Shown here in pieces: positions 1,268 to 42,400 of a DNA stretch of 64,000 nucleotides (position 1 is the first letter of the stretch; every line of letters begins with the position of its first letter). Position numbers and translations under genes: made by a program. The notes under the pieces were generated by a model. It was not told the origin of the DNA and ran no database searches. It saw only the letters and a list, made by a program, of their open reading frames with translations. The stretch is from NCBI RefSeq assembly GCF_029887875.1, contig NZ_JARXRM010000032.1:98440-162439 (forward strand). The letters run 5' to 3'. The stretch comes from Luteimonas endophytica. GTDB lineage: Bacteria > Pseudomonadota > Gammaproteobacteria > Xanthomonadales > Xanthomonadaceae.

Positions 1268-1442
1268 GGACCGTGGTTGTTGATTGATGATTGGTGGGTG
1301 GTGATCGGTGATTCGTCATTCGCGATTGGGGATGGTGACCGCCCGTTCCAGGATTGCTGGGCCGGCGTCTCCTGCCGGCCGATCTCGCCGATGACCCGCT
1401 GTTGCGAATCACCCGTCACGAGTCCCGAATCACGAATCCCGA
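1268..1442. repeat. Intergenic inverted GGTGATCGGTGATTCG-type repeat
   Basis: The spacer between efpL and the SDR gene is lower in G+C than its surroundings and is built of degenerate GATTGGTGAT/GATTCG units. The left half (about 1280-1335) reads these on the plus strand and the right half (about 1405-1445) reads them as GAATCAC/CGAATCC, i.e. inverted. The 16-mer at 1300-1315 (ggtgatcggtgattcg) recurs exactly at 40934-40949. A 61-codon open frame across it is repeat-derived and not credible. The right arm reaches the stop codon of the SDR gene. Confidence 0.65.
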
Positions 1443-40031: not shown

Positions 40032-40922
40032 TTGAGCTGGCTGAAAAAACTGATGCCCGCGAGCATCCGCACCGAGGGCAGCGCGCCGCGCAAGCGCAGC
40101 GTCCCGGAAGGGCTGTGGGAGAAATGCGACCGCTGCGGCGCGGTGCTGTACCGGCCGGAGCTTGAGGAGCACCTGGAGGTCTGCCCCAAGTGCGGCTTCC
40201 ACCGCGCGATCCGTGCCCGCGCGCGGTTGCGCGGGTTCCTCGACCGCGACACCGGCACCGAGCTCGGCGCCGGGCTGGGCCCCACCGACGTGCTCCGGTT
40301 CAGGGACCAGAAGCGCTACGCCGACCGCATCCGGGCGGCGCAGAAGGCGACCGGCGAACGCGACGCCCTGGTCGCGATGGAAGGCGCGCTCAAGGGCCGG
40401 GCCATCGTGGCCTGCGCGTTCGACTTCGCCTTCATGGGGGGGTCGATGGGCTCGGTGGTCGGCGAGCGATTCGCGCTGGGCGCGGAGCGGGCGCTGGAGC
40501 TGCGCTGCCCGTTCGTGTGCTTCTCGGCCAGCGGCGGCGCGCGCATGCAGGAGAGCCTGTTCTCGCTGCTGCAGATGGCCAAGACCTCGGCCGCGCTGGG
40601 CCGGCTGCGCGCGGCCGGCCTGCCCTACATCTCGGTCATGACCCATCCGACCACCGGTGGCGTGTCGGCCTCGTTCGCGATGCTCGGCGACATCAACCTG
40701 GCCGAGCCCGAAGCGCTGATCGGCTTCGCCGGGCCGCGGGTGATCGAACAGACCGTTCGCGAGACCCTGCCCGAGGGCTTCCAGCGCTCGGAGTTCCTGC
40801 TCGCGCATGGCGCCATCGACCAGATCTGCGACCGCCGCGAACTGCGCGAGCGCATCGCCCGTCTGCTGGCCCTGCTGATGCGGCAGCCGCAGCCGGAGGA
40901 CGACGTGGAGGTGGCGGCATGA
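40032..40922 (+). CDS. accD: Acetyl-CoA carboxylase carboxyltransferase subunit beta
   Basis: 296 aa from a TTG start (MSWLKKLMP by family), with AAAGGTGA upstream; no ATG or GTG gives the right N-terminus. Makes malonyl-CoA with AccA/B/C for fatty acid synthesis. N-terminal zinc ribbon CDRCG...CPKCG, then the crotonase-like carboxyltransferase fold: [42 protein letters not shown] and [10 protein letters not shown]. It follows trpA, the usual Xanthomonas/Pseudomonas neighbourhood. Confidence 0.95.
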
Positions 40923-40927
40923 AGGCC

Positions 40928-41035
40928 GTGATTGGTGATCGGTGATTCGAGATTCGAAAAAGCCAGCCTCCAGCAGCCTATGCCTCACTTTCCCGGCCAA
41001 GACGCATGACCAGTCACCAATCACCAGTCACCAGT
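40928..41035. repeat. Inverted GGTGATCGGTGATTCG repeat reaching into glmM
   Basis: Left arm 40928-40957 (GTGATTGGTGATCGGTGATTCG...) and right arm about 41006-41033 (ACCAGTCACCAATCACCAGTCACC) are inverted relative to each other, about 50 bases apart. The 16-mer at 40934-40949 is identical to 1300-1315. The right arm is translated as residues 2-10 of GlmM. Confidence 0.65.
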
Positions 41036-42400
41036 TCCGGTAGCGCCGCGAAGCGGCGCTACTTCGGTACCGACGGCATCCGCGGCCGGGTCGGCGAGTC
41101 GCCGATCTCGGCCGATTTCGTGCTGCGCCTGGGCAACGCCTACGGCCACGCCCTGCGCCACGAGGAGGGCGATGGCTGGCGCAAGCCGTTCGTGGTGATC
41201 GGCAAGGACACCCGCATCTCCAACTACATGTTCGAGGCGGCGCTGGAAGCCGGGCTGGTGGCGGCCGGCGTCGACGTCGAGCTGATGGGGCCGATGCCGA
41301 CCCCGGCGGTGGCGCATCTGACCCGTTCGCTGCGCGCCGACGGCGGCATCGTGATCTCGGCTTCGCACAATCCCCACCACGACAACGGCATCAAGTTCTT
41401 CTCCGCCAGCGGCGAGAAACTCGACGATGCCACCGAGCTGGCGATCGAGGGCGCGCTCGAGCACCCGTTCCGCACCGTCCCCTCGGACAAGCTCGGCAAG
41501 GCCGTGCGCACCCGCGACGCGGTGGGGCGCTATCTCGAGGCCTGCAAGAACTCGCTGCCGCGCGGATTCGACCTGGAGGGCATGCGCGTGGCGATGGACT
41601 GCGCCAACGGCGCCACCTACCAGATCGGACCGCTGGTGCTGCGCGAGCTCGGCGCCCGCGTCGACGCCATCGGCGACGATCCGGACGGACTCAACATCAA
41701 CGACGGGGTCGGGACCACCCATCCGCAGGCGCTGGTGGCGCACGTGCGCGACTGCGGGGCCGAGCTGGGCATCGCCTTCGACGGCGACGGCGACCGGGTG
41801 ATGATGGTCACCGCCGGCGGCAGGATCGCCGATGGCGACGACCTGCTGTACGTCCTCGCCAACGACTGGTTCGACAGCGGGCGGCTGCAGGGCCCGGTGG
41901 TGGGCACGGTGATGACCAACTACGGGCTGGAGCAGGCGCTCGGCGCGCGGGGCATCGGCCTGGTCCGCGCCAAGGTGGGCGACCGCTACGTCCACCAGGC
42001 GCTGCTCGCACACGGCGGCGTGCTGGGCGGCGAGACCTCGGGCCACCTGCTGTGCCTGGACCGCGCCGGCACCGGCGACGGCATCGTCAGCGCGCTGCAG
42101 GTGCTGGAAGTGCTCAAGCGTCGCGGCATCACCCTGGAGGAGGCCCTGCAAGGCCTGCGGAAGCTGCCGCAGCAGACCGTCAATGTGCGCTACGGCAACG
42201 GCGCGCGGCCGGCGGAAGCCCCCGAAGTCCAGGCGGCGCTGGCCCGGGCGCAGGCCGCGGTGGAGGGCAGGGGCCGCGCGTTCCTGCGGCCTTCGGGCAC
42301 CGAACCGGTGGTGCGGGTGACGGTGGAAGCCGACGACGCCGCGCTGATGCAGCGCACTCTCGACGACCTCGCCGGCACCGTGCGCACGGCCGCCGGGTAG
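41006..42400 (+). CDS. glmM: Phosphoglucosamine mutase
   Basis: 464 aa. Converts glucosamine-6-phosphate to glucosamine-1-phosphate for peptidoglycan and LPS. Phosphoserine S120 in [12 protein letters not shown], metal loop FDGDGDR, sugar loop GGETSGHL and phosphate loop [11 protein letters not shown]. The first 14-16 residues ([15 protein letters not shown]) precede the family start [10 protein letters not shown] and come from the intergenic repeat; no nearer ATG, GTG or TTG exists in frame, so the extension seems genuinely translated. Confidence 0.95.

Follow-up and report, generated by a model that had tools for sequence, protein, structure and literature searches.

Which codon begins the phosphoglucosamine mutase GlmM of Luteimonas endophytica, and has a dispersed repeat come to encode the N-terminus of this enzyme? 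The question is raised by the accD-glmM junction in the window, which is the whole 64-kb stretch of DNA that was analysed and to which the positions below refer. The first-pass annotation had read the right arm of an extragenic repeat as residues 2-10 of GlmM, an extension absent from relatives, with no alternative start between it and the conserved YFGTDG motif. From a comparison of this junction with its counterparts, we consider it highly likely that a dispersed heptamer element entered the accD-glmM junction and that translation of GlmM now begins at an ATG within its right arm, giving about 12 repeat-encoded residues.

Organization of the accD-glmM junction

A mechanical repeat search returned inverted arms at 40928-40956 and 41003-41031 (29 nt, 76% complementary), and an Rfam search of 40700-41400 gave no match. 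The features of the junction are as follows.

40050..40922, forward strand: 3' part of accD, acetyl-CoA carboxylase carboxyltransferase beta subunit (TIGR00515 profile match)
40907..40911, forward strand: GGAGG, Shine-Dalgarno-like, inside accD, 7 nt before the putative old glmM start (sequence)
40919..40922, forward strand: ATGA, in which the accD stop (40920-40922) overlaps the putative relic of the ancestral glmM start (40919-40921) (sequence, relatives)
40919..40945, forward strand: putative relic reading frame, in frame with glmM and ended by the left-arm TGA at 40943-40945 (sequence)
40928..40956, forward strand: left arm of the heptamer element, GTGATTGGTGATCGGTGATTCGAGATTCG (repeat search, unit matches)
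40957..41005, forward strand: spacer of the element, common to L. suaedae (junction comparison)
41006..42400, forward strand: glmM, phosphoglucosamine mutase (ORF list, profile match, predicted fold)
41006..41008, forward strand: glmM start codon ATG, one C-to-G change from the repeat unit ATCACC, its presumed origin
41009..41035, forward strand: right arm of the element, GlmM residues 2-10 TSHQSPVTS (sequence, ORF, repeat search)
41036..41041, forward strand: end of the element (usually ..CACGG), GlmM residues 11-12 SG, compared with other element ends; CAATGACGGT in L. suaedae
41042..41059, forward strand: residues 13-18 SAAKRR, probably native glmM codons (compare MSAGKRRW of L025 and L152)
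41040..41062, forward strand: perfect hairpin GTAGCGCCGC-GAA-GCGGCGCTAC, single copy in the genome (repeat search, copy counts)

Start codon and N-terminus of GlmM

The open reading frame 41006-42400 matches TIGR01455 with 589.4 bits over residues 20-460 (curated cut-off 447.55), which identifies it as GlmM, and the only other match in this genome (G000) is a paralogue, 33% identical. The predicted structure has a normal phosphoglucosamine mutase fold, with pLDDT <50 at residues 1-15. From 41006 the codons run ATG ACC AGT CAC CAA TCA CCA GTC ACC AGT TCC GGT AGC GCC GCG AAG CGG CGC TAC, and those at 41009-41035 lie in frame behind the ATG and encode TSHQSPVTS, as had been annotated. The repeat-derived part extends beyond residues 2-10, since the start codon and the end of the element belong to it too: the repeat arm makes up residues 1-10 and the end of the element residues 11-12. 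The start ATGACC is one base apart from the repeat unit ATCACC. Residues 13-18 are probably native to glmM, the element having replaced the native ATG, because the start MSAGKRRW of L025 and L152 resembles SAAKRRY; MSAGKRRW starts belong to less related Luteimonas, and nearer relatives start MSRRY or MSRKY.

Direct reading of the 18 codons that run from 41006 up to the Tyr codon showed, after the first, no ATG, GTG, TTG, CTG, ATT, ATC or ATA, and no NTG or ATN codon intervenes in L. suaedae either, which bears out the annotated lack of another start before YFGTDG. The only one-base neighbour of ATG ahead of the Tyr codon is codon 16, AAG here and ACG in L. suaedae. As far as sequence can tell, GlmM has no usable start other than ATG 41006 and, in this Luteimonas, very probably begins with a repeat-encoded tail. 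We regard it as very unlikely that the repeat is untranslated, with a non-canonical start nearer YFGTDG and the arm serving as 5' UTR. The weak ribosome site ahead of ATG 41006 would fit such an arrangement, and N-terminal REPs elsewhere were judged mostly untranslated in the available text of PMC3733652; however, a non-canonical start would need an NTG or ATN codon that is not there, and the in-frame ATG and the frame length are kept in both G000 and L. suaedae.

Ribosome access to the new start raises a further possibility. There is little Shine-Dalgarno complementarity ahead of ATG 41006, and the relic start at 40919 has GGAGG. The junction RNAs are more stably folded than shuffles (z -2.57 and -4.23), with the glmM start within a predicted hairpin. 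Ribosomes might start at the relic ATG 40919, and termination in the left arm might open the hairpin and couple glmM to accD, the tail still being translated. We hold this only as a tentative possibility: the retained GGAGG and old ATGA overlap are consistent with it, as is folding better than shuffles, and in G000 folding the mean unpaired value from the ATG to +15 was 0.65 with the 5' part held open versus 0.32, but L. suaedae stayed unchanged (0.25 to 0.26) when the accD stop and a further 13 nt were occupied, and two bases of the G000 ATG itself became less accessible. A uORF (MPHFPGQDA) whose stop overlaps the glmM ATGA occurs in G000 and L. suaedae, but was set aside because 8 of its 30 nt differ.

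glmM 5' ends in Luteimonas and other Lysobacteraceae

We prefer initiation at ATG 41006 in a repeat-derived N-terminus. The 5' end was read in each of the 51 glmM genes detected among 52 Luteimonas genomes, a single genome being without a match. The nearest start lay 4 codons ahead of the YFGTDG-type motif in 40 of the 51 and 7-12 codons ahead in 9, and a start 18 codons ahead with the repeat in between was present in two, G000 and L. suaedae (G029). The extension is accordingly absent from 49 of 51 Luteimonas genomes (a total that counts this one), which agrees in large part with what had been claimed of relatives, but it is present in L. suaedae LNNU 24178 (G029, L002/L065), the closest named relative in the scan. 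There, glmM has the identical ATG, 54 nt to the Tyr codon as here, 18 codons and no alternative start, but between the two species the distance from the accD stop to the Tyr codon differs by two bases (140 against 138 nt).

Among 75 distinct junctions of Luteimonas and other Lysobacteraceae, the commonest form was an accD stop overlapping the glmM start, as ATGA or GTGA. Heptamer elements of several unit types were seen by eye at 9 of the 75 (L001, L002, L069, L070, L079, L117, L124, L133 and L147); the right arm lay behind the start codon only in L001 and L002, and in the other seven an element of another heptamer unit lay before the ATG.

From these junctions, and from the pre-insertion form that most relatives show, we infer that the element would have landed on the glmM start codon in a shared ancestor of L. 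suaedae and this Luteimonas. The old start would have stayed attached to the accD stop, cut off from the glmM core and now meeting the left-arm TGA, while one base change in the right arm would have made the new ATG, leaving about 12 repeat-encoded residues, predicted to be disordered, ahead of the phosphoglucosamine mutase fold. Across most of the region G069 is closer to G000 than L. suaedae is, yet it has a different junction element and a normal start, and the history therefore needs loss, replacement or transfer. In G069 (L147, about 1480-1515) there is also a perfect hairpin, TGCTCATGGGCG-GTCG-CGCCCATGAGCA, which directly adjoins both a GGGAATC element and glmM and whose right arm contains the start codon.

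GlmM is 86% identical between G000 and L. suaedae, whereas residues 2-18 are only 71% identical (12 of 17 identical, 5 of 17 different), and because of this difference we take the tail to be most likely a tolerated addition and not a functional one. Selection of the tail for a function such as localisation or partner binding would be in keeping with its presence in two species, but seems quite improbable given that its 12/17 identity against 86% for the protein gives no sign of a conserved sequence, that it is predicted to be disordered and that it is absent in 49 of the 51 genomes.

Distribution of the heptamer element

The element is an inverted heptamer repeat (unit GTGATTS/SAATCAC) with arms around a spacer of about 49 nt. 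Its 22-nt unit form GTGATTSGTGATTSGTGATTCG, with one mismatch allowed, had 19 forward and 34 reverse matches in G000 and 124 forward and 153 reverse in G029; it was matched in 16 of 41 genomes, with 23 to 277 matches in nine congeners besides G000, and a reversed control of the 22-nt unit had 0 matches in all 41. The arms recur as inverted pairs and are mostly intergenic, so that the description of the repeat as extragenic holds for most copies but not for the in-frame elements found in several housekeeping genes. In the 64-kb window, strongly period-7 sequence occupied 2 of 1066 60-nt tiles. A second, degenerate inverted heptamer element was observed at window 1273-1440, with plus-strand units at about 1273-1328 and minus-strand units at about 1406-1440.

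Y1 transposases were rejected as carriers of the element. No GTGATTS arms were found around three Y1 transposase genes (3.0-3.3 kb each), and G009 and G022, without a PF01797 match, yet have 23 and 69 arm matches. Of the traits of a MITE, inverted arms are present, and the three Y1 loci gave no link to a transposase.

The hairpin at 41040-41062 begins with GTAG and has a perfect 10-bp stem, which would suggest a GTAG-type REP and hence an N-terminus built from two different dispersed repeats. We find this hardly credible: the hairpin has one copy in G000, one in L. suaedae and none in 39 other congeners, a looser hairpin search in four genomes revealed no family and its reversed control gave more matches, and the GTAG repeat found at the Y1 transposase loci on G000 contig 22 and in G029 is a different one, GTAGGAGCG. 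Neither many dispersed copies nor an association with a RAYT was found for the hairpin; it adjoins the Luteimonas element as a GTAG hairpin, but differs from GTAG REPs with RAYT transposases in being single copy. An origin of residues 12-19 from a GTAG REP was rejected on account of the single-copy hairpin and the different GTAGGAGCG repeats at the Y1 loci. In L185 and L187, Y1 transposase genes were observed with GTAGGAGCG REPs on their flanks, and these REPs apparently represent the GTAG REP family of these genomes.

In-frame repeats in other genes

The SAATCAC arm passes through all three frames in turn with no stop, while in the GTGATTS direction a TGA recurs every 21 nt. The right arm is stop-free in every frame because the unit length of 7 is not a multiple of three, and therefore an element at a gene start can be read from its right side, whatever the frame. 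By the same process as that proposed for glmM, repeat residues would probably have been put into ArgG, GuaA, DnaE and MetH of several congeners.

We collected 30 further arm sites in G000 and 38 arm-bearing stretches in G029; genes at arm sites named from sequence are presumably ruvC, sufC, atpA, atpD, rplK, prs, groEL and accC. From the 180 arms in the right orientation came 84 rows with a downstream coding frame (the guaA and argG loci of G000 counted twice). For most right arms ahead of a gene, the gene's own ATG follows within a few codons; 18 of the 84 rows had no start within 14 codons, and on reading, 7 of these start slightly further on and 2 look wrong-frame, and the rows left were glmM, guaA, argG and one DUF58 gene. 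The cases in DnaE, in MetH and in a GspH-like leader were missed by the 14-codon rule and spotted by eye. The GspH-like pseudopilin (L254 1327-1944, G029) has a repeat-encoded leader ahead of its cleavage motif GFTLVELM. The DUF58 protein (L256, L172) has a repeat arm near its N-terminus, and before its conserved part there is no later start in G029 and a GTG in G000.

For argG, guaA, dnaE and metH, the best 30 loci each, out of 52 genomes, were taken, of which 4 guaA, 4 dnaE and 2 metH loci stayed unread. Stretches running from the nearest start (ATG or GTG) to the conserved core counted as period-7 when 12 or more of 14 positions repeated at lag 7. This rule picked out 2 of 51 glmM, 14 of 30 argG and 5 of 26 read guaA loci, compared with 2 of 1066 60-nt tiles of the window; the guaA arm of G029 (L190) is visible by eye and falls below the rule. 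In both G000 and G029, the sole start of argG and of guaA is upstream of the arm. Period-7 sequence was in frame in the DnaE linker at 8 of 26 and in the MetH linker at 6 of 28 read loci, and these cases are free of start-codon doubt because they are internal to the reading frame. In L. suaedae, DnaE and MetH each contain a complete element in frame (MetH stretch DHRDSGLVIGDSQERSPAAPESPITNHQSR), and most of the inserted residues are missing from the solved chains 5fku (DnaE) and 3bul (MetH). The left arms in L. suaedae DnaE and MetH have each lost their single in-frame TGA through one base that departs from the unit. In a set of 97 other left arms of equal length, 24 of 291 arm-frames were stop-free, and the chance of both L. 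suaedae left arms being stop-free is <1%, by a test devised after seeing the cases. Related repeats thus appear to be read into several other Luteimonas housekeeping enzymes.

Two variants were also observed. The DnaE linker of G000 (L300, contig 31) holds only the palindrome GGCCGTGATTCGAATCACGGCC, as if the element had collapsed to a single unit in each arm, and in other species (L318, L320, L326 and L337) the same MetH loop has another type of repeat, also in frame and rich in CCCTCCCCCGC / GCGGGGGA.

Apparent change of the repeat unit in place

The argG arm units are AATCACS, AATCCCS or GATTCCC, depending on the species. Purely AATCACS argG arms occur in G000, G029, G022, G032 and G005, whose genome-wide unit matches number 53 to 277; there are no unit matches in G031, 44 in G024, 27 in G035 and, without an argG arm, 112 in G034. 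The first 21 nt of argG, beside the arm, have a mean identity of 77% across different arm units versus 74 and 84% within unit types, figures that group the mixed arm of G031 with AATCACS by rule, leave out G069 and G015 (GATTCCC) and do not enter L243 (period-7, other unit). Because identity in the start region is similar across and within unit types, the argG element looks inherited while its unit changed. We would suggest, with considerable reserve, that heptamer inverted repeats of the Lysobacteraceae are rewritable protein-coding cassettes: at orthologous places in housekeeping genes, the coding sequence on either side would be passed on by descent while the unit is swapped by a process acting across the genome, giving ArgG, GuaA and GlmM tails and DnaE and MetH loops in each species' own type (NHESPIT, NPESRIP, IPDSRFP).

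Comparison with known repeats and significance

Previous work on the GGGAATC / GGGNATC repeats of Xanthomonas and Nostoc described heptamers, mostly of about four units, dispersed between aligned genes, with the G-rich strand lying downstream of stop codons and, upstream of starts, in antisense orientation, and with frequent inverted pairs; 7-11% of the GGGAATC-type repeats at least partly overlap an ORF (Rehm et al. 2015, PMC4692102, available text). On that text, the Luteimonas element shares the tandem 7-nt units, mostly about four, the inverted pairs between aligned genes, and the equivalent junctions in related species with sequence variation (at accD-glmM and argG). The consensus GGGANTN, linked there to G-quadruplexes, does not fit, and the GTGATTS element falls outside the definition because the unit has no GGG tract, although its architecture is alike. 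GTGATTS and GGGAATC-type units both occur at orthologous sites. A word search of the available text of PMC4692102 gave no mention of glmM, and passages on translation into conserved enzymes were not found in it.

Rickettsia palindromic elements and intragenic REPs lie in frame in housekeeping genes including that of DNA polymerase III alpha (PMC3733652, available text). In DnaE and MetH the Luteimonas element is likewise in frame inside conserved proteins, but unit and host are different, with heptamer arms that are frame-neutral on the right and TGA-bearing on the left; the likeness to the Rickettsia elements, taken from the available text, is one of description. MITEs and enterobacterial RU elements also occur in genes (PMC2759123, available text), as short inverted repeats that supply coding sequence as here, whereas no transposase or clear target duplication was found for the Luteimonas element. 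In the open-licence literature we found no description of translated heptamer repeats in Luteimonas, and as far as that literature was searched, the new features are the unit, the arm capturing the glmM start codon, in-frame use that recurs in argG, guaA, dnaE and metH, and an apparent switch of unit type at a fixed site.

Annotators near such repeats cannot simply shift a start downstream. The junction would also open to test how a cell survives an insertion on a start codon, why reading through period-7 arms is easy and how the unit type changes in place. Further, it would offer a tangible example from free-living bacteria in which non-coding dispersed repeats have been taken into conserved enzymes, the states before and after being visible in sister species.
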